A DNA stretch of 64,000 nt from Megalodesulfovibrio gigas DSM 1382 = ATCC 19364 (GTDB lineage Bacteria > Desulfobacterota > Desulfovibrionia > Desulfovibrionales > Desulfovibrionaceae). Of the stretch, positions 1,779 to 61,802 are shown piece by piece. A program made the translations under genes and the position numbers. Within the stretch, counting starts at the first letter, position 1. Each line of letters opens with the position of its first letter. The DNA lies in the NCBI RefSeq assembly GCF_000468495.1, contig NC_022444.1:3466432-3530431 (forward strand), read 5' to 3'. Below the pieces are notes generated by a model that ran no database searches, was not told the DNA's origin, and worked only from the letters and a program-made list of their open reading frames with translations.

Positions 1779-2774
1779 GAGCATATTAATTTTGAAAAGA
1801 GCTATACCCGCAGGAGGCAAACCACCCTTTTGCGTCCTGGGCTGTGACGGCATCCAGGGCCGTGGCAATGGCTTTGAGCAGTGTCTCTTGCGAACGAGCC
1901 TTTATGGATCGTAAGATCTGCTTTACTTTGCTCCACATCTTTTCAATGGGATTGAAATCAGGGCTGTATGCTGGCAGAAGAAGCACTCTTGCGCCTCGTT
2001 GTTCTATGAGTACTATAACTTTTTGGTCTTTATATGCAGAAAGATTGTCCATTACGACAACGTCGTCGTCGCGGAGGCGTGGTGCAAGCATTTTTTCTCT
2101 ATTTATGCGGAAAATTTCAGCGTTAACAGCACCATCAAAGACAACGCATTCCGTACTTCCATCCAGTCGAATGGAAGACAGCATGGTCGTCGTTTTCCAA
2201 TGGCCATGTGGGGCGGCGTCCACGCAACGATTGCCATAAAGCGCTCGACCATAGAGGCGGGTCATATTCGTTTTGGCGCTGGACTCATCCAGAAAGACAA
2301 GGCGCTCAGGAGGAATCTGTTGCACAGTTTCAGGCCACTTCTCACGCGCCTGTTTTACATCCTCCCGCTCTTGCTCAGCCGCGCGTAGCGATTTTTTTTA
2401 TAGCTGAACCCGAGCGCTCGGATGGTATTGTGCACGGTGACAAGCGAGCATGTTTTTGCAAATCGTTCGCGGACTTGCTCAAGGGTAACGTCTGGATGTT
2501 CCTCCAGAAACGCAACAAGCTGTTCTCGCTCCTGGGGAGAGAAGGCCGCGGCCATGTGCCCTCTGCGGCGCGGCTCAAGCCTGTTCTCCTCTTTATATTC
2601 TCGGAGCCAGCGTTTGAGCGTGCTCGTGTGACATTCAAACATCCTGGACACGGTTTCCAGCGTCCCTTTGCCTGATAAGTATGCCTTTACCGCCAATTCT
2701 CGAACTTCTTTTGTTGCTATGCCCATGGCATGAGCATAGCACTATTGCTAGACTTTTTCAATATTAAAATGCTC
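1779..2774 (-). mobile_element. Complete IS630-family insertion sequence (996 bp)
   Basis: The element is bounded by imperfect inverted repeats of about 24 bp. The left end begins GAGCATATTAATTTTGAAAA and the right end, read inward, GAGCATTTTAATATTGAAAA. A TA dinucleotide flanks both ends (1777-1778 and 2775-2776), the target duplication typical of IS630/Tc1-mariner elements. It carries one transposase made from two frames. A second, truncated copy lies at 61284-61802 with an identical coding sequence over the shared part. Confidence 0.92.
1786..2726 (-). CDS. IS630 transposase, two frames joined by -1 frameshift
   Basis: The first frame (2726 to 2355) encodes a helix-turn-helix domain (GTLETVSRMFECHTSTLKRW). 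The second (2325 to 1786 if read from its own start) encodes the DDE domain: VFLDESS (first Asp), VVMDNLSAYK (second Asp) and YSPDFNPIEKMWSKVK (Glu). A run of eight A on the coding strand (T at 2392-2399) lies where the frames meet. A -1 slip there reads SYKKKSLRAAEQE and joins them into a single protein of about 313 residues, the usual size for this family. The copy appears intact and potentially active. Confidence 0.9.
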
Positions 2775-3095
2775 TAATGAGCGGCTTGTCCCAGGCCTTG
2801 GCTTCCAATATGAATATGGGTATGTTGGGATTGGCTTTGACGCCCAGATAGTCAATGAATCTGGTCGTCTCTGCCTTGATACGCGCTTCCTCAGCGACAT
2901 TCCCGCCCGCACCTCGGTCCCAGCCAAGCAATTGCAGCAGCCGGTCGAAAAAGAAAATCCGGGTATCATGCTCGTGAAACACGGCATCGCCAGCGCCAGC
3001 ATAGGGGTTGATCGCCGGACGTGTTTGCTCATCCTCGATTGTTTTGAGCAACTCTTCGAGTCCAAGTCGAAACTCATTCTCGACGCGCCCCCTGT

Positions 3096-6000
3096 TCATT
3101 GCAGCAATTCCGGCAGACAATAGAGCAGGCGGCGCGCAGCGGGCCAGCCAGCGTTCATGAACATGTCGAGACAGTTGATCAACAAGCCACGCCGGCCTTC
3201 CTCCTCGAAGAGTTGCTTATGATCGGCGAGGAATATGCCAATGAGTTTGACAAACTGGTCCGCGCCGAGGGATTCGAACTGATAGCCCGTCTTGCGCCCA
3301 CCGCCGAGCAGGGCGTGTGCTGTGAGGTCGAACGCACGTGCGGCATCGAACGGCCGCAGGAATTCCAGCAGGTTGAGCAGATTATAGACTGTGTGCGGCG
3401 TGGCATGATTGCCAATGATCTCCAGTGTATCCGCAATTTCGTCGAAGAACAGGCGGAGCCCCGCGCCTCCGAGGGCAGGCTCGGCCTCCTGGTCAGTATG
3501 GCTGGCTCCCGAGGCATAGTAGAGTTCGTGACAGACCGCATCAAGCAGCCTGGCCATGGCGCGCCCCTGCTCTTGCGCCGCCTCGTCAGGCTTCTTGATT
3601 GCAAAATAGTCAGCAAGGCCGCCGTCCGCCGCCTGGGCCACCGCATGCACAAGCGCCTGGGAGCGATGTCGAATCGCATTCTGCTCCGTATCCTCATTCG
3701 CCTTGCCGTCGAGGCCGAGCACCAACGCCTTGCGAAGTGTCCCGAGGACGTTACAGAGTTCGGGGAGATGCTCGGTCGGCATCGCGATCCAGCCGTCTAT
3801 CACCGCATGGGCGGCCTGCCGCTCATGGGTCACCCAGAGAATCGTGAGCGAATTTGCGAGCGACTTGCGCATTCGCGCTTGCTTATCGGGCGCATCCGCA
3901 AAGCGCCCCAGGAGCCCAAGCGCCAACTGCAGCACCCGATCCGGCGCATGAGGAACAAAACGGCAGAGCACGTCCGGCATAACATGGTCGAGCACGCCCA
4001 GGTTGGTCTCCACATCGAAACGTGCCGACAGCCGTCGCCAGAATCCTTCAGTATCAAGTGCACTGATTCGCGGTAGATAAAGCGCCGCCATGAGCCGTAC
4101 CGCCGGGTGCGGATCCTGAAGTAACGCATCGATTCGCAGTGCGAGCGCAGAGTACAGGTCGGGCCGTCCTCGCGAGAGAGCAAGCGCGAGCTTGGCGGCG
4201 TCGACACGTGGCGCGGGCGAGCCCCACGATGCGCCACGTTCAAAATTCGCCTCGGTGTCCTCTTCCGTTTGAGGACCTTGCGATGTCGCCACCAGCGTGA
4301 ACAGATCGATTAAACGCGTGGTCGAAACGGGGTCCTCGGCCCTTGGCGTCTCCTTGCGCTCGATCAGGCGATCAAGGGCGCGAGCGATCTGGCCCTCGGC
4401 GTGGTCCACAAGATCGGGATGCTGCGCGTCGCGATCAATCGTTGAGGCCAGCCGTTCCAGCACATCAAGGGTTTCCTGGAGCGGGACCGGCGTTGCCTCT
4501 CTCGCATCCCGCTCAAGCTCGAGTTGGTCCTCGACGGTGTCAATCGCCGCCATCAGCGACTGGTTGGCAGGCAGGTCGCGGTCGAGCTCAAGGATCCAAT
4601 CATAGGGCTTTGGGGAACCATCAATGCTGTGGATGGTATACAGTCGTTCATTGCGCACATCGTCCGCGGCCTTTGGCTCATCCACAACGGACCGTGCGTG
4701 GTCGGTCAGCAGCCGTTCCCGCCCAATTGCACCGAACAGCCAGCGCTCGAAGCTCTCGCGAGCGCCATCCGGCGACTGGAGTCGGGAAAAGTCAAATGCG
4801 GGCACTCCTGTCTCGAAGTCTCGACGCGCTGATTCACTCAGCCGATCATACCCGGCGGCCACTGCGTCCACGGCATCCCTCCACGTGTCGGGCAGTGTGA
4901 GGAAGGCCTCCTGCATCGCCAGGGGCAGCACGAGATCCAGCACTTCGTCGCGCCGTTCGCTTGCGACCATGAACAGGCGGGACCAAAAGATGGCGAGGCT
5001 TGCTTTCTCGACAAGGCATTCCACAACCGGCCGCGCTGCTGTTGCGTCGCTGCTTCGCAGATAGTCGAGCAGCGTCTTGACGAGGGCCTCGCCATCATCA
5101 CGAGATTCCTGATCAGGGTCGCTGGCCCAGATGTAGCTCCAGTCTTCGCGCAGCCGGACCGTTCGTGATTCGAGCGTGATGCTGACATCCAGCCATTCGG
5201 ATTTGCGGGGATTCTCGCGCGCGACATAGGCTTCGGTGGCCTCAAGAATCGCATCAACCGCTTCCTTGGGATGGAGCGCAAGAAACGTGGGCACAAATTC
5301 GGTGAGCGCATGGCAGGCCGATTCATAATCCTGGCGGGCATTGGAGCGCAGGGCCAAGATCTGGCTGTCCCCCAACATGGTTTCGCGATCATCTGTGACG
5401 ACGTATGCGAAGACGTGCTGATAGATCTGCCGGGCAAAGGCAGGATCATGCGTGGCAATTTCTTTTATCCTGCGGCACAGCGCCGGCACCTCCTCGGGGG
5501 CAAAGCGCTCAAGGCGGGCAGGATCAAAGACGCGTTCAAGCAGACAGCGCGAGACCTCCGGATCGGTGTCATAGGTGCCGCCCACAAAGTTGATCGCCGC
5601 GATGACCAGATTGCGGGGTTCGTCGAGGGTCAAGGCATGGTCAAGCAGCGCGCGGGCTGCGATCCCAAGATCTGCGCGTTCCTGCTCGTCGGAAACCTTC
5701 CCGAGGAAGCAGAGCAGCAAGAACCGCATGACTTCGGAGACCGGAGACACATTCGCGGCAAGATCGCGCAACAATCGCACCCATGGCGCAAGGGGCGTTT
5801 CCGGATGGTCTTCGAGCCGGATGGCCAGTGCGCCGCTCAAGTGCACCAGTGCCTGCACCGCAAGATCATCTGCCTTGACAGCACGCTGCGCAAGTATGGC
5901 TACATCACTCGGCGACAGCGGATATTCGGCGCAGATCCGCCCGGTCGCGCCACGGATCACCGGGTCGCCGTTCCCGTCGGCCAGAATGCGAGCCGCCGCT

Positions 6001-7970
6001 GTCCAGAACCTCGCCCGGGTTTGGTCGGCATCCCAGATTTCGTGCAGCACGAATGCCAACGCAGGAGCGAGCATCAGCCCGCGAGCGTCAGCCTTGGGGA
6101 AGCTGAGCGAGCCATCTACCAACTGTTCCGGATCCAGATACTCTCGGGACACGGCATAATCGAAAAGAACATGGTGGCGGAATTGAATTTGGCGGTCACC
6201 GTTAATCGAGACCAGCACTCCCTTGCGCTTCAGGGCATCAACGGTTGCCGGCTCAGATCCCGCCGCTGTGGAAAAAGCCGCCCGAAGGACTCGCCCCTCG
6301 ACCATTTCATGCACCATGCGATGAATGCAGGCTTTTGCAGGAGCCCCGAGCGCATTGACGCGGTGATCCCAGTAAAGCTTCAACAATGCTGTTTGCGAAG
6401 CAATGTGCGAGAAGTCGGCAGTGACCAGGCCGTCCTTGATCAACTCGCACAGCAGACGCGTGTTGAACGGGACTGCCGCAAGATCGCGCAGTGCAGGGGG
6501 CGCATGTTTGAGCGCGGCTTGGAGGGCCGGTGTCTGGTCGAGCAGCTTCTGAAACTCGGTGGGAGACCAGGACGGCACCTGCACGTGCCGAACGGTTTGA
6601 AAGCCCTGCGCCTGGAAATCTGCCGCAGGCGGGGCTCCCTTGAACAACGTTCGGTACTGTTGCCCCATCCGCAGGTCAAAGGTGCGTATGGAGGCAATGA
6701 CACGCCAGCGTCCTTTCCGCTCCATGATGCGCTCAATGAGCTTGCGAAAGACGCCTTCCTCTTTATCCCCGCGGGCTGCGTCCAACGCATCGATGATCAG
6801 CCAGCCCGGACCTGCACCGTCCCAGGCGTCGAGGGTCTCAATCAGCCCATGCTCTAGCTCAAGTTCATTCTTGAGGCCTTCGAGGGTCTCGACCGAATGC
6901 CTGTCGACCGCCAGTTCAAGCACGTCATGCTTGCGAGCCCGCAGCTCGCGAGCAAGCGCGTTCAGCACGCCACTTTTCCCGGCTCCCGGCTCGCCCACGA
7001 TGAGGAACGGCCCCTCAAGCGCCGCGGCCAGGATCGCCTCCTCGCATTCTCGCTTGATTGTGACAGGCTGGCCGTCCGCCGCCTCGATCGTCTCGTAGCG
7101 CTCCAGCATCTTGGCCGTTTCAGCGCTATGGTTGCGCAGCCGCTCGATATCGCGCTTGAAGTTCGGCGGTGACGGCAGCGTCAGACCCCGCGCAAAAAGG
7201 TCCCTGCGGAGCGTGGTAAAATCCACTCCCCCGCGCTGCGCCATCAACTCGCCGCACAGCGCCACAAGGCCAGCCACCAACGCCCGGGCATGTGCTGTGT
7301 GGGGGGTGTCGAAGGCCTGGAACACGGCAGCAGCTTCCTGTTCGAGACTCGCAGGATCGAACTGAAATATTCGAACCAAGCCTGCCAGCGTGTTGGCGAA
7401 CCCGTGCTCCAACGGCGCGGAGGTGGTGCTTTTCCATGTGCTTTCGACAACGGCAGAGAACTGCGAAAAGGCTTTGGTCTGCTCCTTATTCAGCGCCCCG
7501 CCGCCCGGCTGCGAGGCGAGTCGAAGGGCATTCGCCAGCGTGAGCACCACCGTTTTAGGCGCAGTTGGGCCAACGGCCAGCACCAGACGATCAAGATGCG
7601 GATCCAGTGGACGTTTCCATTGCCGTGTTCCATCGCCGGACAGGCAAGCCAGCCAAAGCCGGACAAACTGGGCTATCGTCTTGCCCAGGGGGCTTACCGG
7701 ATCTGATGAGAGCGACACGTCGGTCTTTGCCTGTATTGCAACAAAGCCGTCTGCGGATGTTGCAATCAGCATATCATCGACCGACGCTTCTGTTTCAAAG
7801 CGCATCCACACGGGTGTGGCGTCGCCCAGCTCGAGAATCGCGGGTAATGGCCGCTGGGCCAAAAGTTTGCAGCCGATGAGCGCGCCCAAGCGTTGTTGAA
7901 ACAGGATGCCAGCGCTCGTCGCGGCGCCGCCACCGCCGACCCGCTGGGACGTTTGACCCGTCATGTTCAC
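3096..7970 (-). CDS. Large P-loop (STAND-like) NTPase with N-terminal nuclease-like domain
   Basis: The protein has 1624 residues. It starts at GTG 7970 behind an AAGGA site; an ATG two codons on is the alternative. Residues ~15-90 ([14 protein letters not shown], then ASVDDM, then [10 protein letters not shown]) resemble the D...QxK core of Cap4/DUF4297-type PD-(D/E)xK nuclease domains. A P-loop NTPase follows: Walker A GEPGAGKS at 326-333, Walker [11 protein letters not shown] at ~390-399, and an arginine-bearing sensor strand VIASIRTFD near 424-432. The remaining ~1100 residues are alpha-helical, HEAT-like and without transmembrane segments, the layout of signal-transduction ATPases that sense a ligand with a C-terminal repeat array. 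The gene overlaps the HsdR_N-like gene by 4 bp. A role in antiphage defence is inferred from architecture and context; no named system is recognised. Confidence 0.75.
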
Positions 7971-8622: not shown

Positions 8623-10479
8623 GTGCGACATATGGCTATGATGAACCTTGATGTCTTTTCACAACAGTTGCTGCGATTTTACGACACGTGCCTCTCGGAG
8701 CATGGGGACACTGCGCGCGGGGCTGGCTGGCCGAACGAGACGGACCGCGGACGCAGATTCCGTATCGGATGCGAAATCATTGCGCAATTTGGCGGAGGTG
8801 ACTCTGTCACGGTCTGCGATCTTGGCTGCGGCACTGGTGAATTGTACGGCCACATCGTGCGGAACGGCCTCGACAACATTTCGTATACCGGCGTCGATCT
8901 GTCCTCTGCCGCATTGCAGTACGCCACCGAGAAGTTTCCGGCAGCCAATTTTTTGCAGCTCGATGTCCTGCAGTGTTCAGATGAGCTGCTGCAAGCAATC
9001 AATTGCGATTTCATCTTCGCCAATGGCCTCTTTACAGTCAAAAACAGTGCCAGCCACGCGACGATGTTCCGCTTCATGACCGCGACGCTCGAACGGGTAT
9101 GGCCCAAGGCCCGCCGCGGCATCATCTTTAATGTGATGTCGAAGGTCGTCGACTGGGAGCGCGAGGATCTCTTCCATGTATCATATGATGAGCTTGCCGA
9201 ATATCTTCACCGACTGGCCGGACGTTTCATTGGGTTCCGAGCCGATTATGGCCTCTATGAACTGATGGCCTACGCGGTGAAGCCGGGAGCGGCGTCGCGG
9301 CAGGCCGTCTGCCGGCCAATTCCCCCACAGGCTGCATGGATCCCTGTCTTTCGCCCGGCCCTGCCAACCGCCGAACGCCTCGCCCCATTTCTTGCGATAA
9401 TCGACCAGACCCGGCAGTATTCCAACTACGGCGGCCTGGTCGGACGGTTCGCGAAGCGCCTCTCGGAAACGTTGGGCCTTGGGGCGGACGGGGTACGCCC
9501 CGCTGTCTCCGGCACCCTGGCTCTGCTTGGAGCGATTCTTGCCAGTGCCGGACGGGCGAGTCCGGACCGTCCGTTGGCGCTTTGTCCGGCCCATACCTTC
9601 GTCGCCACAGCCAATGCGGCCGAGATGGCCGGGTACCAGCCGTATTTTGTTGATGTGGACGTCAATTCCTGGCTCTTCGAGCCGGCCATGGCCCGAAATC
9701 ATCCCGCGCTGGACAGGGTGGGCTTGGTTCTGGCGGTGGCTCCTTACGGGCAGGGCGTCGAACAGGCGGCATGGGCGGCATTCTCTCGCGACACGGGTAT
9801 TCCCGTGGTCATCGATGGCGCCGCCACCTTTGAACGATTAGCCGCATTTCCAGGGGAGTTGGTCGGACAGGTTCCGGTCGCCCTCAGCCTGCATGCGACC
9901 AAGACCTTCAGCACAGGCGAGGGCGGAGCGGTGGTCTGTGCTGACCGGGGCCTCCTCGATCGTGCGACAGCAGCGCTGAACTTCGGTTTCAATGGCGAAC
10001 GCATCAGCAGCATGCCAGGGACCAACGGCAAGATGAGCGAGTATCACGCCGCCGTCGGATTGGCAGCGTTGGAGGCTTGGCCCGAAACGCAAGCCGCCTT
10101 CGACAAGGCGGCGTACACGTATCGGCGTCAGGCTGAAGCGGCAGGGTGTGGAGACCGAGTCGTCACCGCCCCTCGCATCGCCTCCTGTTACACGCTCTAT
10201 CATGCCCGGGATGCAGTCGAGGCGGCGGCCGTTGAGAACGCTTTGCACGCAGCACGCATAGAATACAGGCACTGGTATGGCCCCGGCCTGCACCTGGAAC
10301 CTGCGTTCCGGAGCGCGCCCCGCGACGAGCTGCCCAATACGGAACAACTGGGCCGTTGCCTCATTGGTCTGCCCATGGCGCCCGATCTGTCGACGCAGGA
10401 GATTTTTCGAATCGTGGCCGCTCTTGATGCAGGGTTGCGGGGAATTTCAGGTCATGACGAGGAGGGCAACAATGGCTGA
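8623..10479 (+). CDS. Fused SAM methyltransferase and DegT/DnrJ/EryC1 aminotransferase
   Basis: The frame encodes 618 residues from GTG 8623, with in-frame ATGs at 8632, 8638 and 8641; none has a clear ribosome site. Residues ~55-160 form a class I methyltransferase (VCDLGCGTGELYGHI motif I, YTGVDLSS). From about residue 225 a PLP-dependent sugar aminotransferase of the DegT/DnrJ/EryC1 family follows, with the cofactor lysine in HATKTFSTGEGG and ALCPAHTFVATANAAEMAGY in the large domain. Such aminotransferases make amino sugars for surface glycans. The stop overlaps the next start by 8 bp, so translation is probably coupled with the acetyltransferase that would modify the new amine. Fusion of the two activities in one chain is unusual. 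Confidence 0.85.
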   Translation: MRHMAMMNLDVFSQQLLRFYDTCLSEHGDTARGAGWPNETDRGRRFRIGCEIIAQFGGGDSVTVCDLGCGTGELYGHIVRNGLDNISYTGVDLSSAALQYATEKFPAANFLQLDVLQCSDELLQAINCDFIFANGLFTVKNSASHATMFRFMTATLERVWPKARRGIIFNVMSKVVDWEREDLFHVSYDELAEYLHRLAGRFIGFRADYGLYELMAYAVKPGAASRQAVCRPIPPQAAWIPVFRPALPTAERLAPFLAIIDQTRQYSNYGGLVGRFAKRLSETLGLGADGVRPAVSGTLALLGAILASAGRASPDRPLALCPAHTFVATANAAEMAGYQPYFVDVDVNSWLFEPAMARNHPALDRVGLVLAVAPYGQGVEQAAWAAFSRDTGIPVVIDGAATFERLAAFPGELVGQVPVALSLHATKTFSTGEGGAVVCADRGLLDRATAALNFGFNGERISSMPGTNGKMSEYHAAVGLAALEAWPETQAAFDKAAYTYRRQAEAAGCGDRVVTAPRIASCYTLYHARDAVEAAAVENALHAARIEYRHWYGPGLHLEPAFRSAPRDELPNTEQLGRCLIGLPMAPDLSTQEIFRIVAALDAGLRGISGHDEEGNNG

Positions 10480-12132: not shown

Positions 12133-12929
12133 CCATGGCCTGCAGACATGCCCACCGGATCCGCCGACGCATTGCGGTCATGCAGCCGTACTTTTTTCCC
12201 TATGCCGGCTACTTCCGCCTTCTGGCAGGCGTAGACTGTTTTGTGCTGCTCGACTGCGTCCAGTTCAATCGGCGTGGCCGGGTGCACCGCACTGAAGTCC
12301 CGGCCCCGGCCGGGGGAACGCAATGGCTTACCCTGCCCCTGGCTCGGCAGCCGCGCGAGACGTGCATCCGCGACCTAGCCTTTGCGGCCGATGCCCGATC
12401 GGCCTTTGATGCTCGCTTGCACCGGCATCCTTGGCTGGCCGCTGGTTCCGGGCCTGCCTCGGACCGCGTCCGGGCCTTCCTGGGCTCCCCCCTGCTGCGG
12501 GTAATGGATTTTATCGAAGCCGGTGTGCATCTTGTCGCGGATTTGCTGGATCTGCGACCCGAAATCATCCTGGCGTCGACGCTGGAGCTTCCGCCCGACG
12601 TCCGCGGCCAGGATCGGATCATCGCCATTGTCAAGGCGCTGCAGGGAACGGAATACCTCAACGCCCCCGGTGGCCGAAGCCTCTATGACTCCCAGGCCTT
12701 CGAACAAGCAGGGCTGCAGCTCGAATTCCTGCCACCGTATGGAGGGGATTTTCCATTGCTGTTGCCAGCACTTATGTCCGTGGATCCTCGGGAGATCCAG
12801 GCCGACATCCGCCGAACAATGCGGGCCCCCATGGACATTGATTTATACGAGCATAACAGCTCGCTAAATAACGTACATTGCACTCCAGGACGGCGCGCCG
12901 GATGCGATGATTCTGCCAGAAATCATTAA
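12129..12929 (+). CDS. WbqC-like family protein
   Basis: The gene begins at GTG 12129, overlapping the preceding TGA (GTGA); ATG 12135 is the alternative. The conserved N-terminal signature IAVMQPYFFPYAGYFRLL and the following VQFNRRGRVHR motif identify the WbqC-like family found in O-antigen clusters. The biochemical role of the family is not settled; members are often next to amino-sugar acyl-transfer genes, as here. The last ~20 residues are low in conservation and overlap a small downstream frame. Confidence 0.8.
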   Translation: MTMACRHAHRIRRRIAVMQPYFFPYAGYFRLLAGVDCFVLLDCVQFNRRGRVHRTEVPAPAGGTQWLTLPLARQPRETCIRDLAFAADARSAFDARLHRHPWLAAGSGPASDRVRAFLGSPLLRVMDFIEAGVHLVADLLDLRPEIILASTLELPPDVRGQDRIIAIVKALQGTEYLNAPGGRSLYDSQAFEQAGLQLEFLPPYGGDFPLLLPALMSVDPREIQADIRRTMRAPMDIDLYEHNSSLNNVHCTPGRRAGCDDSARNH

Positions 12930-13032
12930 ATTCACTTCAGCGATTTCTGGATTGAAAAAGTCCATGGAGGATTTTTTCAACACCCTGATAAGGTTTCGTG
13001 ACAACAATTTGAAAGACGCGGGTTCGAAATGA
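12907..13032 (+). CDS. Candidate 41-residue small protein
   Basis: An ATG at 12907, inside the end of the WbqC-like gene, opens a 42-codon frame whose TGA (13030-13032) overlaps the ATG of the glycosyltransferase as ATGA. The predicted peptide is amphipathic and helical (ISGLKKSMEDFFNTLIRFRD). The exact coupling on the downstream side favours a real gene; the upstream ribosome site is weak. Confidence 0.4.
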   Translation: MILPEIIKFTSAISGLKKSMEDFFNTLIRFRDNNLKDAGSK

Positions 13033-13934
13033 AACTGGTTGCGCAAGTGATAGCAGGCAACTCGGCGCATGATCTCATTGGATGCTTTGCCCATCATAGA
13101 AGCATGGGCGTGGATGCGTTCATCGTCTGTCATTGGCATTCGGATGACAACACGCCAGAGCTGCTGCAGACCCTGGAACGGGAGCACGCCGATATCACGG
13201 TTGTGCAGCTTCCGGGGAACCTGGAACAAATTCTGGACGCTGAGCGGGCTACACTGGATCTGGCACGCAGGAAATACGACGCCGACTGGATCATCCGAAT
13301 CGATTCCGACGAACGCTGGCTTGTGCAACGCGGATCGCTCAAAGAGGCCGTGGCCAAGGAGACCCAGACGGCATCAATCACAGCGCCGCGCTATAATATT
13401 GTCTGGCCCACGCCGGAAGCAGCGGCGCAGGCGGACATCTCGTCAACAATGGCGTTGCGGGAACTCCCACTGGCCGTATTTCCGGTGACCATTGACCCGG
13501 CCGAGCGCAGCACCCTTGGAGGCATACCCTGGGTGCTTACACGCGTGGGGCCAAAATGCTGCATGCGCGCCTGTGAGTCCCTTGATTTCAACGTAGGCGG
13601 CCATGCGGTCATCAACCGGGTGAACAAACAGGGTATTCCGACTTCCGTCGCGACTGATATCGTCATTGCTCATATCGCTTTCACCACACTCGCTCGATTT
13701 GAAATCAAGATGCGTGCTGTCTCGATGATCGTCGACGCCGCGCCTGCAAACAGAAATCCCAACCTTGGCTGGCATTGGGTACGCCTTGCCGAAATTTTCA
13801 AGCAGGGCCCTGCGGCTGTGGAAGCCGAGTGGAGAAGGCAATTCATGACCCCAGAAGCAGCGGAACAGTTGGTCGGTCGCGAGGTGGTTGTTCCTGGAGA
13901 CAGGGTCTTCGAATTGGCACGAACCCTTGCTTGA
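13029..13934 (+). CDS. Family 2-like glycosyltransferase
   Basis: A 301-residue cytoplasmic protein. It starts KLVAQVIAGNSAHDLIGCFA and carries DADWIIRIDSDERW near residues 88-101, which has the DxD-like sugar-nucleotide and metal site of GT-A enzymes related to GT2/GT92 (Glyco_tranf_2_4). There is no membrane anchor. It is the likely transferase of the glycan cluster, possibly coupled to the 41-codon frame before it. Donor and acceptor are unknown. Confidence 0.72.
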   Translation: MKLVAQVIAGNSAHDLIGCFAHHRSMGVDAFIVCHWHSDDNTPELLQTLEREHADITVVQLPGNLEQILDAERATLDLARRKYDADWIIRIDSDERWLVQRGSLKEAVAKETQTASITAPRYNIVWPTPEAAAQADISSTMALRELPLAVFPVTIDPAERSTLGGIPWVLTRVGPKCCMRACESLDFNVGGHAVINRVNKQGIPTSVATDIVIAHIAFTTLARFEIKMRAVSMIVDAAPANRNPNLGWHWVRLAEIFKQGPAAVEAEWRRQFMTPEAAEQLVGREVVVPGDRVFELARTLA

Positions 13935-14089
13935 GATAGAACAACAGCGCACAATTTGTGCCCCTGAAAATTCTCATTTCCAGCGATTGAAAAGTGCCAC
14001 CTACGTTCCTTGTTTAACAACTGCCTTGCTCACAACGCTTTCTGCATCGTAGCGGGGACTTCATCGCTTTCTACATAGGGATTGACAGT

Positions 14090-15529
14090 ATGAACATTCT
14101 TCTCGTTGTCGCACCCAGAATGCCAGCATTGACGATGCAATCGACTCTCTGGTTGCCTGTCTCGTTGCTCTACCTTGCCGCCGTGCTCCGTGAAGCAGGC
14201 CACGCTCCAACTATTCTCGATCTTGCCGCGGTCCGTGTTCCCGAGGGCGTACAGCCGGAAGAGCACTATCGCACTTTGCTGCTGGACAAAATCCGCGAGC
14301 TTGATCCGGGGTATATAGGTATTAGCTGCCGTGCCACCATGGATTTTCCACAAATCAGACAACTTGCTCGTGTCATACACGAGGAAGTGCCGAACACCCC
14401 TATTTGCCTTGGCGGAGCACACCCAACGTGGCATTGCCGCGAAATACTTGAGCACTGCCCGGAAATTGATTGCATCGTGCTCGGCGAAGGAGAACCACAG
14501 GTCGTGGCGCTGGCAGAGGCCATCGCCGCCGGTGACCGACGCGCGTACGCGAATATTGAATCATTTGCGTATGTTGATAAAGAAAGCGGCAGTATTATGG
14601 TAAATCCCAGGAAATCATACATTCAAGACCTCGACACCTGGCCTTTCCCGGCCTATGATCTTGTTGATTTTTCTAATTATCACAGTAATTTTTCGACATG
14701 GCACAACCCCAAGGGGCACCAGATCAACATGCGGGCCCCAATACTTACTTCCAGGAGCTGTCCCTTCAACTGCAGCTTTTGCATGGGGCATTCAATGTCC
14801 GGAAGAGGGTTTCGCCCGCGATCGCCTGCCGAAGTCGTCCGCGAGCTTGAATTCCTGGTGCGAGAGTTTGGGCAAAACTTCTTTTGCTTTTACGACGAGA
14901 ATTGTCTTCTGCACAAGGATCGCTTCATCGCTATTTGCGATGGAATTTACAAAACAGGCTTCGACATCCAGCTCTCCGCCCCGGTTGGCTTTTATCTCAA
15001 TGCCGTCGATGAAGACATTGTCAAGGCGTTCGTGCGGGCTGGAGGCTGCGCCGTGGGCGTGCCAATTGAAACTGGAAGCAGCTACCTACGAAACAAGATT
15101 ATAGAAAAGAAAATAAGTGACGACACCATCAAGCATGTTGTTAAATTGTACAAAAAATACGATTTATTCACGTATGGGGCGTTCATCATGGGTTTTGAAG
15201 AGGATACGCCTGCCACACTGGACGAGACCATAGCCATGATCCACGAATTGCAGCTCGATGTGAACGACGTCTTCAATCTAGTGCCGTATCCTGGAACACG
15301 GATCCACGCTCAGGCCAAAAGGAACGGCACATTGCTCATCGATGACAGCCAAGCATGGAAAGGTGAGGTGATACTTGGATCGCGTGGAGGGGCGCAGCAG
15401 TTTTTCATTCAGCCTCCGGGGCTGAGCATGGAGGAGCTGAGGCAGTACCGGGCAAAATTCGACCAGCTTAGACTGTATAGCGACCGCGCGCGCAACTTGA
15501 ACAGGCAGGGACAGAAGCAGTCCCGGTAG
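14090..15529 (+). CDS. B12-binding-domain radical SAM enzyme
   Basis: A 479-residue protein. Residues 1-170 form the cobalamin-binding domain (LPVSLLYLAAVLREAGH, ICLGGAHPTWH, IVLGEGEPQ). The radical SAM domain follows with the cluster motif CPFNCSFC near residue 225, where three cysteines bind the [4Fe-4S] cluster. Family members do methylations or rearrangements on lipids, glycans or antibiotics. The position behind a sugar-modifying cluster suggests a glycan or lipid substrate, but it is separated from the glycosyltransferase by 155 bp and may have its own promoter. The 3' end adjoins a transposase remnant. Confidence 0.85.
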   Translation: MNILLVVAPRMPALTMQSTLWLPVSLLYLAAVLREAGHAPTILDLAAVRVPEGVQPEEHYRTLLLDKIRELDPGYIGISCRATMDFPQIRQLARVIHEEVPNTPICLGGAHPTWHCREILEHCPEIDCIVLGEGEPQVVALAEAIAAGDRRAYANIESFAYVDKESGSIMVNPRKSYIQDLDTWPFPAYDLVDFSNYHSNFSTWHNPKGHQINMRAPILTSRSCPFNCSFCMGHSMSGRGFRPRSPAEVVRELEFLVREFGQNFFCFYDENCLLHKDRFIAICDGIYKTGFDIQLSAPVGFYLNAVDEDIVKAFVRAGGCAVGVPIETGSSYLRNKIIEKKISDDTIKHVVKLYKKYDLFTYGAFIMGFEEDTPATLDETIAMIHELQLDVNDVFNLVPYPGTRIHAQAKRNGTLLIDDSQAWKGEVILGSRGGAQQFFIQPPGLSMEELRQYRAKFDQLRLYSDRARNLNRQGQKQSR

Positions 15530-29684: not shown

Positions 29685-29812
29685 ATGCCGAACTCTGACA
29701 CGATCCACACCTCTCCCGAACTTCTGTCGCTCATTGCGGAATGCGATGAGTTCAAAGGGGCGTGGCGTGCCCTTGGGGCGTTGGCCCCCGAGCGCCTGAA
29801 CGCCTTGAGTTA
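29685..29812 (+). pseudogene. Fic-family protein, N-terminal fragment
   Basis: From ATG 29685 the frame reads LLSLIAECDEFKGAWRALG and then ALAPERLNAL, the start of Fic (DUF4172-type) AMP-transferase proteins. The similarity stops abruptly at about 29810, where the 3' end of the oppositely oriented hipA gene begins; the Fic catalytic motif is gone. This is a recombination joint, not a functional gene. Confidence 0.65.
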
Positions 29813-31108
29813 TGCCCCCCGCTCAAGCCGTGCTCGCGTCAACGCGCAACGTCGGTGCAGTTCCTCAAGGATAGGTGTCAGGATGGCATGCGTCTCGCCC
29901 TGCTGAATCGTCTCGGCGACCAGGGTTTCGGCAAGCACGGGCAGGCGCGCTGCCAGCGTTGCGAGACGCTTTTTGAGCTGTGCCGCAGACAGGCCGGACG
30001 CAGTGGCGAAGCGCTCCCAGTGACGCGGCATCACATCCTCAAACACGTATCTCCCGCCGATCTTCATGGCCATCCTGTCCGTCAGCTCTGGATAGACCGC
30101 CGTGCAGAGCACATCATACAACGGTGCCAGCACCGCGCCTTGGGCTGCGTACAGCAGGGAGAAATTCTTGGCATGGGCGTCGTGATTGCCAAGCAGGGCG
30201 TTGAACAGCATGGCGTCGAGCAGGGCCAGGAGATGCGGCGCGCTGGGACGCGTGGCCTGCCGGAGCAGCGAAAAGCACTGCGCGGCATCGGGCCCGCCTT
30301 CGTTTTGGTATTTATACTCGGGCGGCACGCCCAGGGCCTGGCAGAAATCCTCCTGGTGCAGGCGATGGATGGTGCCGTTGGCCAGTCGCTGACGATCATA
30401 GCGGGTCACGAGCAGCAAGGCGCGGCCGGCCACGCGATGCACCTGGACGGCGGCCGTGTGCAGCTTCAGTCGAGCGGCCAGGGTCATGCAAAACCACTCG
30501 TTGCACACGCTCCCCTCCACACCGGCGATGGCCGGTTTGAGAATATGCGTGCTCGCAGTGCCATGCAGGGGGAGGCCGATGCGCCCCTCCCAGACCACCA
30601 CCGGCAACTTGTCCTGCGCGCCGGCCAGGGACAACCGAACGCCGGCCTCGCCAGCCAGCAGCGGCCTTCGGGGCAACTCCTCCATGAGCTGCAGCAGGGC
30701 GGCGTCATCCAGCCAGCGGACCCGCTCGCCCTCCTCTCCTCCCTCTCCCCCATCTCTCGTGAAGGTGGCTTCCTCCGCGGGCGTCTGTCCCGGCTCCAGC
30801 AGAGTCACCGCCCCGGCGCATTCCCCGCCAAGCCGGTCCAATAAGGCAAAATCATTCCTGGCGGAGATATGCAGCATCCGCGCAATGCTCGCGCGCATGG
30901 CGCCTTCGGGCAACAAGCCGGCAAAAAAGGGCCGGGCGGCCCTGTCGTCGAAGATCTCCGCGCGCAGGGGCAAGGACATGGACAAGGGGCGCGCCGTGGC
31001 AGACTCCAGCCACGGCGCCGCATACACGAATCCCAGCCGCCCGTCCTGTTGTGAAAGCGTCCCCACAAGCCGGGCATCCCACCAGACCTGCAACTCCCGC
31101 GGCGTCAC
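29810..31108 (-). CDS. hipA: HipA-type serine/threonine kinase toxin
   Basis: A 432-residue HipA with the N-terminal HipA_N region (WWDARLVGTLSQQDGRLGF) and the kinase core: SLAGAQDKLPVV, the catalytic GNHDAHAKNFSLLY, and LYDVLCTAVYP as the metal-binding Asp. It starts at GTG 31108, overlapping the hipB stop as GTGA. HipA kinases inactivate glutamyl-tRNA synthetase or other targets and cause dormancy; HipB neutralises them. All key kinase residues are present, so it is probably functional. Confidence 0.92.
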   Translation of the reverse strand: MTPRELQVWWDARLVGTLSQQDGRLGFVYAAPWLESATARPLSMSLPLRAEIFDDRAARPFFAGLLPEGAMRASIARMLHISARNDFALLDRLGGECAGAVTLLEPGQTPAEEATFTRDGGEGGEEGERVRWLDDAALLQLMEELPRRPLLAGEAGVRLSLAGAQDKLPVVVWEGRIGLPLHGTASTHILKPAIAGVEGSVCNEWFCMTLAARLKLHTAAVQVHRVAGRALLLVTRYDRQRLANGTIHRLHQEDFCQALGVPPEYKYQNEGGPDAAQCFSLLRQATRPSAPHLLALLDAMLFNALLGNHDAHAKNFSLLYAAQGAVLAPLYDVLCTAVYPELTDRMAMKIGGRYVFEDVMPRHWERFATASGLSAAQLKKRLATLAARLPVLAETLVAETIQQGETHAILTPILEELHRRCALTRARLERGA

Positions 31109-31359
31109 GGCTGCGCTCCAGGCTCGGTCTTTGCTTCACCCGCAGGCAGACCGTCGATAATCAGGCCGCCGCCCAGGGCCTGCACCACGCGCAGCATGGT
31201 TTCAAAGCGCACCGAAGGCTTGCCGGCCTCCAGCTCCACAATGAACCGGACGCCCACACCGGCCGCAAGGGCCAACTGCGGCTGGGTGAGCCCCAGGGCC
31301 TTGCGCGCAGCACGAACGGCCTTGCCCAGCGCAGCAGCATCTTGAATGGAAACTGGCAT
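31105..31359 (-). CDS. hipB: HipB-type antitoxin / Xre repressor
   Basis: An 84-residue protein starting at ATG 31359 (PVSIQDAAALG). The Xre helix-turn-helix is clear (LGLTQPQLALAAGVGVRFIV, ELEAGKPSVRFETMLRV). It precedes hipA in the usual order and should repress the operon by binding the three palindromes upstream. Confidence 0.9.
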   Translation of the reverse strand: MPVSIQDAAALGKAVRAARKALGLTQPQLALAAGVGVRFIVELEAGKPSVRFETMLRVVQALGGGLIIDGLPAGEAKTEPGAQP

Positions 31360-31366
31360 GACTTCA

Positions 31367-31478
31367 TTCCCTTTCGGGAAATACTCGGACGTTTTTACCG
31401 CAAGATCAAGCAAAAGTTCCCGTTCGGGATTTTTTTGCCTTGATGGCAGAAAAAAAGAATATATTTCCCGATCGGGAA
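31367..31478. promoter_or_regulatory. Three hipBA operators
   Basis: TTCCCTTTCGGGAA (31367-31380), TTCCCGTTCGGGAT (31417-31430) and TTCCCGATCGGGAA (31465-31478) are near-identical palindromes. Their centres are 50 and 48 bp apart, close to five helical turns, so bound HipB dimers would lie on one face of the DNA. The first overlaps the hipB leader. Confidence 0.85.
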
Positions 31479-31483
31479 TTATG

Positions 31484-31633
31484 GCGCTACATCTCCGGCC
31501 GCTGGCGCACGTCCGGCCACTTGGCACGAGGAAACACCAGCCCCAGGCCGGTCCAGTTCAAGCGATCCATAATCCGAACGCCTTCGGGATCGCCGTCAGG
31601 CACGAAAATGCGGATGATGAAGGGGGGCGGTCA
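31484..31633 (-). repeat. Captured 5' fragment of the GIY-YIG gene
   Basis: About 150 bp nearly identical to 60935-61083, the first ~48 codons of the GIY-YIG gene. The ATG is lost and one extra G is present. The fragment begins six bp beyond hipBA operator 3. Confidence 0.88.
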
Positions 31634-46412: not shown

Positions 46413-49400
46413 TTGCACACTCAGGATGCGACCCTGCTGCGCGCGGAGTTGTTTAGTATCAAGCAGCTGGAGCGCCACGCCGTAGCCATGGCGGGGCAGC
46501 ATCGCATTGATCCGCATCCCGGTGCGGACAAGCTGCTGCCCAGGCTGGCGGACAACGCCCGCGTTTTAACGATGGCGCACGAAGTGGTGACAGCGGCGGC
46601 CTTGCCCGGACAACGCATCGCCCCCGCAGAAGCTTGGCTGCTGGACAATTATTATCTGATCGAGCAGCAGATCGTCATGGCCCGCCGCCATCTGCCACGC
46701 GGGTATAGCAAGCAGCTGCCGCGCCTGATGGATGGTGATTCAGCAGGCTTTCCACGCGTTTATGATCTGGCGCTGGCGTTGATTTCCCATATGGACGGCC
46801 ATGTGGACAAAGACAACGTCCGCCAGTTCATTGCCGCCTACCAGACCGTCACCCCCTTGAAACTGGGAGAGCTTTGGGCATTTCCCATCATGCTGCAACT
46901 GACGCTCCTGGAAAATCTGCGTCGGGTCAGCGTGCGTATTGCCTGCCTGCGAGAGGAACGGGACCAGGCCACGGTCTGGGCTGACAACATGCTCACCACC
47001 GCCGAGCAGGAGCCCAAGCAGCTCATCCAGCTGCTGGCCAGGTATGCCCATGCAGACGCCCCCCTCACGGCGCCTTTTGTGGAAGAATACCACCTCCGCC
47101 TTCAGAACCAGGGGCCGGCCATGGCCTTTGTGCAAACCTGGATGGAACAGAAGCTGCTGGAACAGGGGGTAACGGCGGTGCAGCTGTCCGAAGCCGCCAG
47201 CAGGGAGGGCGCGGCCAATCAGATTTCCATTGCCAACAGCATCGGCAGTCTGCGCTTCATCGGGGCCACGGATTGGCGTGAGTACGTGGAATCTCTCAGC
47301 ATGGTTGAGCAGGCCTTGCGCGACGATCCTGCAGGAGTGCATGCTCGCCAGGATTTTGCCACGCGCGACCGCTACCGTCACGTCATCGAAGAAGTGGCCC
47401 ACGACAGCCCCCTTGGCGAGCAGGACGTGGCCCGTGCCGCCTGCGGCCTTGCCCGGGCTGCAGCCCAGGCGGCGGGGGCGGATCATCGCACCGCGCATGT
47501 GGGCTACTATCTCGTGGACCATGGCCGGCACACTCTGGAACGCGTGGCAGGCTGCCGGTTCACCTGGAAACGCTGGGGCAGGAGATCAGGGCCGCGGAAC
47601 CGGCTTGGTCTGTACCTCGGGGGCATTCTGCTGCTTGTCGCCCTGGCGGTCACGGGCCTGCTGCACCTGACGGCGAAGCTTGGCCCAGCCAGCTGGACAG
47701 GCTGGGAGTTCTGGCTAATCGCCATCACAGGTGCCCTCGGCGCTTCCACCCTGGCCAGTTCCCTGGTGAATCTGGCAGTCACCCTCACCTTGCCCCCGCG
47801 CCTGTTGCCTCGCCTGGATTTTTCCCTGGGCATTCCCGAAGAGCACCGTACCATGGTGGTGGTGCCTACCTTGGTGCGCCGGCTTCAGGATGTTGATGAT
47901 CTGATTGAAGCTTTGGAAATACGGTACCTTGGCAATCGCGATGCCAATGTGTTCTTTGCCTTGCTCACGGATTGTCACGACGCCCCGGAAGCCGTCATGC
48001 CAGGAGAAGACCTCCTGCTTGCCCATGCCAGGGCGTCTGTGCAGGCCCTCAATGAGACATATTGCGATGACCGTCCAGGCATCTTCTTCCTGTTCCATCG
48101 GCCACGCCTTTGGAATCCATATGAGAATGTTTGGATGGGGTACGAACGCAAGCGCGGCAAGCTGGAGCAGTTCAATGCGTTATTGCGTGGCGGCGATGCT
48201 GCCGCGTTCTCCGATGTGGTGGGAGACATACGCATTTTGCCAACCATAAAATACGTTATCACATTGGATACCGATACACAGCTGCCGCGAGATACAGCGC
48301 GCATGCTCATTGGCAATTTGGCGCATCCCCTCAACAGGCCAGTATTCGACCCCATCAAGGGTCGTGTGGTGGAGGGCTATGCCATCCTCCAGCCTCGCGT
48401 GTCCATCAGCCTGACCAGCGCCGGGCATTCACGGTTTGCCAAGCTCTTTGCCGGAGAGGCCGGCATAGACCCGTATTCCCGCGAAGTCTCCGACGTGTAT
48501 CAGGATTTATTTGGAGAAGGATCCTTCATCGGCAAGGGCATTTACGATGTGGATGCCTTTCGCCGGGCCGTGGGCGGTCGTTTTCCGGAGAATCTCATCC
48601 TCAGTCATGATTTGGTGGAAGGCGGCTATGCCCGGTCGGCTTTGGTAACGGATGTGGACCTCATCGAGGAACACCCCGCCAGCTACACCAGGGAGGCCAG
48701 CAGGCGACACCGCTGGATTCGTGGCGACTGGCAGCTGGCCGGGTGGCTGCTGCCTTGGGTTCCGGGACCCTCACGAGCAGGGGAGCCCAGGGCCAGACGG
48801 CAGCCGAATCCGCTTTCGGCCCTGTCTGTCTGGAAAATATTCGACAACATTCGCCGCAGCCTGGCATCACCTGCACTCCTGGTGTTGCTGGCCTGCGGCT
48901 GGCTCATGGGGCCCGGCGCGCCATGGCTGTGGTCGTTGCTGGTGGCCGGCATGCTGGTGCTGCCGGACCTGCTGCGGGCCATGGTGGAACTGGTGCGCAA
49001 GCCAGCGGACCGTGGCTGGCTCACCCATGCGCTGCTGGCCGGCCATTCGTCGGGCCGGCCGGTGTTGCTCTCGCTGCTGGCTCTGGTGTTCCTGCCCTAT
49101 GACGCCCTGCTGTGCGTGGACGCCATCCTGCGATCGGGCCTGCGGATGCTGTTTACCCGGCGCGGGTTGCTGCTCTGGCACATGCCGCTGTACGCCGGGC
49201 GCAACGCCCGCCGATCCCTGGGCGGGTTTTTCCTGGAAATGTGGGTCGCGCCGGTGGTGGCCGTGGCCTTGGGGATGGCGTTGTGGAGCGTGCGCCCGGT
49301 GGAGATGCTGTATTGCGCGCCGGTGCTGCTGCTGTGGCTGGTTTCGCCTGCGGTGGCGTGGTGGATTAGCAAGCCGCTTAAGCCTATTGCGCAAGATTTG

Positions 49401-52400
49401 ACCGACGAGCAACGCACATTCCTGCGGGTCTGCGCCCGGCGGACCTGGCGCTATTTTGCAGAATTCGTGGGCCCCAAAGACAACTGGCTGCCGCCGGACA
49501 ACTTCCAAGAGCATCAGGCAGCAGGCATTGCCACGCGAACTTCCCCCACCAACATGGGCATGGCCTTGCTGTCGGGGCTGATGGCCCATGACTTTGGCTA
49601 CATCCCGGCTGGCCAGCTTTTGCAATTTATCGAAAATACTCTGATTTCCATGGAAAAGTTGGAGCGCTACCGCGGCCATTTTTTCAACTGGTACGACACC
49701 CGCACCCTGCAGCCCCTGCGCCCGCAGTATGTCTCTTCCGTGGATAGCGGCAACCTGCTGGGCTGCCTGCTTACCTTGCAGACGGGGTTGGTTGAGCTCA
49801 AGGAGCAGCCGGTGCTGTCGCCAAGAGCGTTTCACGGGCTGCAGGATACTGCGCAAGTGCTCTCAGAGTGTATTTCTTCCTCCATCACCTCGGCGCTTGC
49901 CCAAAAGGCGACCCATCTGCACGATGCCATTGCCTTGGTTATTGCAGGCGATCCCCTGCGGTCCATGGAAGCGGCGCTTGCCACCCTCGGTGAATTGCAG
50001 CGCCAGGGCAAAGAGTTGCTGGCCTGGCTGCCCTCCAACACTGCCGAGGAAGGCGAGCTGTTTTATTGGGCGCACGCCTTTAACAGACAAACACAAGCAT
50101 TGATTGATGAAATAAGCATGTTGTCCCCTGCCGCGCCGCTGGGTGCTCCCCGGGGCAAGGCCATTCCGACCCTGGCGGCGCTGGTCATTGCCCAGGCCCA
50201 AGGCGCGTTGGATCGCTTCCGGGTCATCGACGACCTCATGGAGCGCATCCGCCTGCTTTCAGCCATGGATTTTGAGTTTCTCTACGACACCTCACGCGAT
50301 CTCCTGAGCATCGGCTACGACGTGGGCGAACGGCGCCGCGATCCTGCCTGTTACGACCTGCTGGCCTCGGAAGCGCGGCTCACCAGTTTTCTGCTTATCG
50401 CCCAGGGGCAGATCCCGCAAAAGCACTGGTTCACCCTGGGCCGGCTGCTCACCAGCCACGGCAGCGGCCTGAGTTTGATTTCCTGGAGCGGCTCCATGTT
50501 CGAATACCTCATGCCGCAGCTCATCATGCCCAGTTATGAGAACACGTTGCTGGAACAGACCTGTCGTGCTGCCGTGGCCAGGCAAATGGAATACGCCCGT
50601 CAGCGCGCCGTGCCCTGGGGGATTTCCGAATCATGCTACAACGCCGTGGATGGATTACATGTGTATCAATACCGGGCCTTTGGCGTGCCAGGACTCGGTT
50701 TTAAACGCGGGCTGGGGGATGATCTGGTCATTGCGCCGTACGCCAGCGCCCTGGCGCTGCTGGTGCTGCCCAGGGAGGCCTGCCGCAACCTGCAGGATAT
50801 GGCGGCCACGGGATTTTTGGGCGCATACGGGTTTTATGAATCGGCGGATTACACACCCTCGCGGGTGCTGCGTGGCAAGACGCATGCTGTGGTGCGGGCA
50901 TTCATGGCGCACCACCAGGGAATGAGCCTGCTTGCCTTTGGCCATGCGCTGCTCCACCGCCCCATGCAGCGCCGTTTTATGGCTTCCCCCATGGCTCGGG
51001 CTACGGAACTGCTGCTGCAGGAGCGCGTGCCCAAAAAGGGAGCCACATTGCACCCCCACGCGACGGAAGCAAGCGCCGCGCGTCCACCTGCTGCAGATGT
51101 CGGGGCAATCTTGCGCACCTTTACCGATCCTGCCACACCCATGCCGGAAGTGCATCTGCTCTCCAACGGCAGCTACCATGTCATGGTCACCGCGGCGGGA
51201 GGCGGCTACAGCCGTTGGCGCGATCTGGCCATCACCCGCTGGCGCGAAGACGTCACGGCCGATTCCTGGGGCTCGTTCATCTACCTGCGCGACCAGGAAA
51301 CCGGGCGCTACTGGTCCACGGCGTATCAGCCCACGCAGGACGCAGGCAAGCGGTACGAGGCTACCTTTGCCCAGGGGAGGGCAGAATTCCGGCGGCAGGA
51401 TTACGCCCTGGAAACCCATACCGAGATCTGCGTTTCTCCCGAAGACGATGTGGAGATTCGCCGTGTCACCCTCACCAATCTTTCCTCGCGAACCCGGTAC
51501 ATCGAAGTGACGAGCTATGCGGAAGTGGTCCTGGCACCGCAGAACTCGGATTTGTCCCACCGCGCCTTCAGCAACCTGTTTGTGCAAACCAGCATCCTGC
51601 AGGACCGGCAGGCCATCCTCTGCACAAGACGCCCCCGAACGCCGGAAGAACAGACGCCGTTGATGTTTCATCTGCTGGCCTGCCCCGGCGTGGCAGCCAG
51701 CGAACCTTCCTATGAGACGGACCGCGCCAGGTTCATCGGCCGCGGGCGCTCGACGGCAAATCCGGCGGCATTGAACTTTCAACAAGGTACGCAGCAACTT
51801 TCCAATACCCAGGGATCGGTGCTTGATCCCATTGTGGCCATCCGCAGAGTCATCACCTTGTTGCCCGACGAGTCCGCCACGATACAGCTTATCACCGGCG
51901 TCGCAGATAAGCGGGATGCCGTGCTCGGCATGCTGGAAAAGTACTGCGACCGGCATTTTGTGGAACGTGCCTTCGAGATGGCCTGGTTCCAAAGCCAGGA
52001 AATTTTGCGCCACCTTGGCGCATCGGAAACCGACGCGCAGCTGTTTGGCCGCCTGGCCACGTCGGTGGTGTTCAGCAGCGCGACCCGCCGCGCCGCGCCG
52101 GGTCTCATTGCGCGCAATCAGCTCGGCCAGTCTGGGCTGTGGCGGTTTTCCATTTCGGGAGACTTGCCCATCGTCCTGTTGCGTATTGGAGACACCACCC
52201 GCATTGGCCTGGTCAAGGAAGTGCTCCAGGCCCATGCCTACTGGCGCATGAAAGGCCTGGCCGCCGATTTGGTGATCCTCAACGAAGATTTCACCAGCTA
52301 CCGGGCTGTGCTGCAGGAGCAGATCATGGGGCTGGTGCATGCCGGCCCCGAGGCCCAGGCGCTGGACAAGCCGGGCGGCGTGTTCGTGCGCCGGGCCGAA

Positions 52401-61128: not shown

Positions 61129-61284
61129 TTAGCGGTTGAAATACACAGCATCCCGCTCATCTGTCTGCACAAATTTGTATCCCATGGAGAGTGCCACGCT
61201 ACTCCAAACAGCACAAACCTCATCTTCAATGCCTGCGGGCAATGTGGGGCATTCTTTAACAAGAGCACTGAGTCGCTCCGCCAG
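61129..61284 (-). pseudogene. C-terminal gene fragment cut by IS630
   Basis: In the minus strand LAERLSALVKECPTLPAGIE, then VCAVWSSVALSMGYKFVQTD, ends at TAA 61129. The frame is open right up to the IS630 end at 61284, and no start precedes it. The parent family is not recognised. Confidence 0.55.
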
Positions 61285-61802
61285 AGCATTTTAATCTTGA
61301 AAAAATCTATATCCGCAGGAGGCAAACCACCCTTTTGCGTCCTGGGCTGTGACGGCATCCAGGGCCGTGGCAATGGCTTTGAGCAGTGTCTCTTGCGAAC
61401 GAGCCTTTATGGATCGTAAGATCTGCTTTACTTTGCTCCACATCTTTTCAATGGGATTGAAATCAGGGCTGTATGCTGGCAGAAGAAGCACTCTTGCGCC
61501 TCGTTGTTCTATGAGTACTATAACTTTTTGGTCTTTATATGCAGAAAGATTGTCCATTACGACAACGTCGTCGTCGCGGAGGCGTGGTGCAAGCATTTTT
61601 TCTCTATTTATGCGGAAAATTTCAGCGTTAACAGCACCATCAAAGACAACGCATTCCGTACTTCCATCCAGTCGAATGGAAGACAGCATGGTCGTCGTTT
61701 TCCAATGGCCATGTGGGGCGGCGTCCACGCAACGATTGCCATAAAGCGCTCGACCATAGAGGCGGGTCATATTCGTTTTGGCGCTGGACTCATCCAGAAA
61801 GG
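61284..61802 (-). mobile_element. Truncated IS630 copy
   Basis: 519 bp matching 1779-2297, from the left inverted repeat (GAGCATTTTAATCTTGAAAA) to CCAGAAAG in the catalytic domain. The HTH part and right end are missing. The transposase fragment (up to 171 codons) is identical over the overlap. The flank is CA rather than TA, so the target duplication is not preserved. Confidence 0.92.

Follow-up and report, generated by a model that had tools for sequence, protein, structure and literature searches.

The large gene at 3096-7970 of the analyzed DNA and the gene stump that follows it are a damaged copy of a two-gene phage-defense candidate that is already catalogued, PDC-M54, and not a new system. 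Searching PADLOC-DB 2.0.0 identified the large protein as PDC-M54A (residues 6-1624 against a 1621-position model, 2185 bits) and the stump adjacent to it as PDC-M54B (1.6e-44). The locus shares with PDC-M54 both genes, their order, a full-length match of A and a match of B over its first 110 positions. It differs in M54B, which is truncated by an insertion sequence (IS) to residues 1 to ~108 of ~475. The original prediction regarded this pairing of two nuclease-like modules as undescribed. The PADLOC matches rule out an undescribed system; as a match to a named system, which the prediction had set as refuting, they count in part, PDC-M54 being the name of a catalogued candidate. We consider it likely that the intact form is an Avs/NLR-type sensor-effector system, in which M54A is a nuclease and M54B contributes a second nuclease arm.

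A 2026 article on archaeal immunity (PMC12988326) describes PDCs as candidates that a guilt-by-embedding approach produced, with validation pending for most, and credits them to a 2024 preprint by Payne et al. (doi 10.1101/2024.01.29.577857). Neither a mention of PDC-M54 nor an experiment on it was found in the literature searched, and NCBIfam 20.0 gave no specific family for the proteins of the locus. The features of the locus in the window, meaning the whole 64-kb stretch of DNA that was analyzed, are as follows.

1779..2774, minus strand: IS630-type insertion sequence with TA on both sides and inverted terminal repeats, truncating M54B
1786-2325, minus strand: DDE_3 transposase of the IS630-type element
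2355-2726, minus strand: helix-turn-helix (HTH) frame of the IS630-type element
2777..3099, minus strand: what is left of PDC-M54B, its first ~108 codons, carrying a PD-(D/E)xK motif of HSDR_N-like type (D...EAK); PADLOC PDLC04706, 1.6e-44, first 110 of 475 positions
3096..7970, minus strand: PDC-M54A, intact, 1624 aa, STAND-type NTPase with an N-terminal nuclease-like domain; PADLOC PDLC04702, 2185 bits, residues 6-1624
3099..6113, minus strand: long C-terminal region of M54A, ~1000 residues, helical/HEAT-like, putative sensor (weak HEAT matches)
6159..7043, minus strand: STAND NTPase module of M54A, residues ~310-604 (sequence, fold matches, conservation)
within that module, minus strand: SIR motif, residues 427-429, and HHxxFD motif, residues 599-604
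6780-6800, minus strand: Walker B of M54A, residues 391-397
6972-6995, minus strand: Walker A of M54A, residues 326-333
7572..7916, minus strand: N-terminal PD-(D/E)xK-like domain of M54A, residues ~19-133 (AlphaFold model and conservation)
7725..7796, minus strand: candidate active site of M54A, E59, D65-D66, Q80-x-K82 (invariance in 14 non-redundant homologues)

The interrupted locus and its surroundings

M54A is a single open frame with a GTG start, a TGA end and no internal stops. The full-length 2185-bit profile match, together with the invariance of E59, D65, D66, Q80 and K82, indicates that the frame is not a chance one, so the 1624-residue protein of the original prediction is upheld. 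The proposed ATGA coupling is likewise present, as the M54A stop (3098-3096) and the ATG of the M54B remnant (3099-3097) overlap by 4 nt. The remnant frame contains FIDYLGV...EAKAWDKP and runs to a stop at 2764, slightly within the IS630-type element, which is 996 bp long and has the inverted ends TAGAGCATTTTAATATTGAAAA / TAGAGCATATTAATTTTGAAAA. Alignment with intact M54B proteins shows homology up to residue ~108, ending at the IS, and the missing ~365 residues were found neither beyond the IS nor elsewhere in the whole genome. The small gene is therefore the stump of a ~475-aa M54B; the second PD-(D/E)xK site had been correctly seen, and the smallness of the protein is the result of the truncation. 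The M54A-M54B pair in this genome is probably inactive, or acts through M54A alone. Because the partner is truncated, the window copy is unsuitable as a test construct. Just two copies of this IS630-type element were found in the genome, both within the window, the second being partial (61284-61801, 518 bp, 99% identical).

The neighborhood had been described as an IS with other defense relics. Of these, the IS does adjoin the locus. No other relics were found close to it; the flanks carry sugar/polysaccharide-type genes, and no local defense cluster was found in the 64-kb window. The only PADLOC match near the locus is mad2, a generic methyltransferase domain, and the closest toxin-antitoxin-like pair, a gene for a HipA-like kinase preceded by an HTH gene (29810-31527), lies ~22 kb away. 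Two further frames of the window deserve mention. One 618-aa frame (8623-10479) fuses a SAM methyltransferase to a DegT-type sugar aminotransferase, and a very long plus-strand open frame of 2870 aa (46413-55025) possibly runs antisense to a genuine gene.

No full-length M54A was found among 149 relatives, nor in the class (348 genomes) or the phylum (395 genomes), where the weak matches are mostly shared P-loop stretches; annotated phage records yielded no M54A either. The nearest relative found is encoded on a Rhizobium plasmid (56%). The lack of a full-length homologue in relatives, class and phylum makes vertical inheritance in this family unlikely and, together with the plasmid-borne relative, suggests from sequence comparison that M54A was probably acquired horizontally. 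Elsewhere, the M54A family is found on conjugative plasmids, and divergent relatives adjoin NACHT, HEPN, DUF262, methyltransferase and abortive-infection genes. Furthermore, two temperate phage contigs carry an intact pair between endolysin/spanin and integrase/repressor genes (L041, 494-6843; L042, 5764-12113). The interval between phage lysis and integrase/repressor genes is a usual site of accessory defense genes.

Candidate active sites of the two proteins

We modeled residues 1-720 of M54A with AlphaFold from a five-row alignment (mean pLDDT 80, pTM 0.62). The model displays a helix (19-38), three strands (53-58, 67-71 and 76-82), a helix (94-111) and a strand (128-133), and this alpha-beta-beta-beta-alpha-beta order is that of the PD-(D/E)xK core. 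D65/D66 lie at strand 67-71 and QxK in strand 76-82, the places expected for PD-(D/E)xK. Across 14 non-redundant homologues, with identity down to ~25%, E59, D65, D66, Q80, K82 and Q101 never vary. Together the model and the conservation bear out the D...QxK nuclease-like N-terminus of the original prediction; sequence search of this domain reached no nuclease model. The predicted STAND-like P-loop is also in place, with GEPGAGKS at residues 326-333 and a Walker B that reads IDALD. In the same 14 homologues Walker A (GxPGxGK), Walker B (DALD), S427/R429 and F597-H599-H600-F603-D604 are invariant. These positions name candidate residues for mutation in PDC-M54.

The C-terminal region gave weak HEAT matches, and in the model it is helical as far as residue 720. 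The helical character that had been claimed for it is thus consistent with the data at the start of the region, and a sensor role for the last ~1000 residues is plausible.

Intact M54B proteins are 463-494 aa long. Their N-terminal domain, which contains D84 and E100-A-K102, is HSDR_N-like: matches to PF04313 (HSDR_N) have E=0.022 and 0.095, under the Pfam cut-off, and hhalign of M54B with an HSDR_N protein of a viral contig gave 6.6e-7. A solo HSDR_N-DUF5655 protein is encoded on a viral contig (L058, 7911-9119), and the adjoining frame resembles a phage head/minor capsid protein. At the M54B C-terminus H419-H420-C421, C434, C444-C445-x2-C448-x5-C454 and C465 (L041 numbering) are invariant; in the phage-borne gene this cluster lies within 5440-6843 of L041. 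The CxxC-x5-C spacing resembles that seen at Fe-S sites in Cas4, AddB and Dna2, a lead only, and the cluster is probably a binding site for a metal or an Fe-S group. The AlphaFold model of M54B has a pLDDT of 43.

We propose that the C-terminal helical repeats of M54A would recognize a phage-made signal, and that the bound signal would free the STAND module for NTP-dependent oligomerization. The assembly would then cluster and activate the N-terminal PD-(D/E)xK nuclease domains, as reported for Avs (PMC12931631). M54B, made by coupled translation, would supply the second, HSDR_N-like PD-(D/E)xK nuclease arm, and the two proteins together may degrade phage and/or host DNA.

Pairing and exchange of partner nucleases

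Intact A-B pairs occur in five lineages besides the window: three plasmids (L029, L030 and L031), Bradyrhizobium (L002) and the phage of L041/L042. In all five, M54B lies directly downstream of M54A with a 4-nt (A/G)TGA overlap. On a plasmid of Rhizobium leguminosarum WSM2304 the intact pair spans 77919-84220 of NC_011366.1. Pairwise identities of A and of B among the five intact pairs are correlated (r=0.96, with 1 of 120 permutations as high, for five taxa only). Among 398 genomes of one order, A is present in six and B in only one, whose A is of the B-bearing type. The survey thus found the pair conserved in other lineages, and found the partner absent beside most of the distant homologues. 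M54B was not found beyond the B-bearing clade, and since most of the distant M54A homologues lack it, it is not needed in general.

This distribution bears on a reading in which M54A is a self-sufficient STAND nuclease and M54B an optional accessory gained in one clade, be it a regulator, a counter to anti-defense or a nuclease that broadens the range. No coupled partner accompanies 10 of 19 intact M54A homologues, all of which retain all motifs; the M54A of L054 lacks M54B though it groups with L002, in the B-bearing part of the tree; and the window M54A is itself intact, without stops. On the other hand, the nearest lineages have B with the 4-nt overlap and matched divergence, and the PADLOC candidate is defined as a pair. 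We regard self-sufficiency as a real possibility that falls somewhat short of probable. If it holds, the window copy may still defend with A alone.

On two Rhizobiaceae plasmids (L033 and L035) M54B is replaced by a true SduA (Shedu), encoded upstream and overlapping the M54A start by 1-4 nt.

6547-8004 of L033 and of L035: SduA gene coupled to M54A

The SduA of L035 matches PADLOC model PDLC00384 at 2e-141, and nothing on Shedu-STAND pairs was found in the literature searched. Partner labels cluster on the M54A tree, with 3 changes against 7.6 in shuffles. In L054 an OLD-TOPRIM protein is encoded 95 nt upstream of the M54B-less M54A (12491-14356), a possible third partner type seen in one case. 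Two other homologues are irregular: that of L039 (7995-12843) is annotated in two pieces (11432/11776) and is probably broken, and that of L040 (7950-12899) is one 1649-aa frame with homology to the query M54A only in two pieces.

The replacement of M54B by SduA leads us to suggest, tentatively and from gene neighborhoods, that M54A might be a phage-sensing STAND hub whose DNA-cutting partner is exchangeable, being M54B, Shedu or none according to clade. If this is true, a single receptor would act through two distinct nucleases, and such a dual-nuclease STAND mechanism is not described in the literature searched. From lineage to lineage one partner nuclease takes the place of another, and the pair is carried by phages too; the exchange is the part of the finding worth pursuing.

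The partners also invite a reading in which M54A-B cuts incoming plasmid or unmodified DNA directly, in the manner of a restriction enzyme and without sensing a phage protein. The HSDR_N-like domain of M54B would fit such an activity, as would the alternative partner in two relatives, Shedu being a DNA-cleaving defense nuclease. However, in intact loci a modification enzyme occurs neither within the pair nor immediately beside it, and proteins are what STAND receptors of this kind, with repeats at the C-terminus, usually sense. We judge direct restriction improbable. Still less probable, in our estimate, is a toxin-antitoxin-like or plasmid/prophage maintenance module that senses no phage. Many M54 copies are on plasmids, one is in a temperate phage, and the two genes overlap, all of which such a module might show. 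Yet a 1600-residue STAND receptor with long repeats is unlike toxin-antitoxin architecture, many M54A homologues are solo, and the structural neighbors of M54A are immune receptors.

Relation to known defense systems

The analysis places the catalogue candidate PDC-M54 among Avs/NLR-like STAND receptors. A Foldseek search with the model of residues 1-720 returned Avs4 at the top (E 1.4e-11, ~760 columns), followed by NLRC4, Avs3, NLRP9, NLRP3 and EfAvs5. TM-scores were low (0.2-0.4), indicating that only domains match known receptors and not the domain arrangement. M54A shares with the AVAST proteins Avs3, Avs4 and Avs5 an N-terminal effector, a central STAND NTPase and C-terminal repeats, the repeats being weakly supported, but is only ~10-12% identical to them, and no AVAST model (Avs1-5) matches it at E<=10 in PADLOC. 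Avs1-4 are reported with nuclease effectors and Avs5 with a Sir2 NADase (PMC12931631). M54 adds another nuclease gene, of HSDR_N type, where Avs have none or MBL-protease pairs.

Among proteins of solved structure, the best relative by sequence is an "AAA family ATPase" of 1523 aa (PDB 9n00/9n01/9yix; E=4.9e-15 with a profile of 12 homologues). Identity is low, but the two proteins are collinear over VDD...QCK near the N-terminus, the NTPase, the C-terminal part of the STAND module and, towards the C-terminus, a HEAT-like stretch. In the literature searched, no name was found for the system to which PDB 9n00 belongs.

A Cap4-type effector had been suggested for the N-terminus. The resemblance in motifs stands: M54A shares with Cap4/DUF4297 nucleases the G..(F/Y)Q helix followed by E/D and QxK in that order, and by model and conservation it has, as Cap4/DUF4297 nucleases would, the E/D...QxK motif within a core of alpha-beta-beta-beta-alpha-beta order. 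The Cap4/DUF4297 model itself was not reached, since PF14130 matched 0 of 12 M54A family members, with no listing for P0001. An hhalign comparison with a true Cap4 aligned the motifs at a Prob of 0.1%, which is not significant. Cap4 membership is thus unsupported by Pfam, by the PDB profile and by hhalign.

Shedu (SduA, PF14082) takes the partner role in the two M54A relatives, translationally coupled upstream. By sequence comparison M54B is not related to it: neither P0003 nor P0006, both M54B proteins, matched SduA/DUF4263, and hhalign of M54B with SduA gave P=0.65. Published cases of accessory nucleases joining defense ATPases exist in the nuclease-protease pairs of Avs1, Hachiman and Lamassu (PMC12799240). 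There, likewise, unrelated accessory nucleases have repeatedly been joined to defense ATPases, whereas M54 has no protease and draws on a different partner family.
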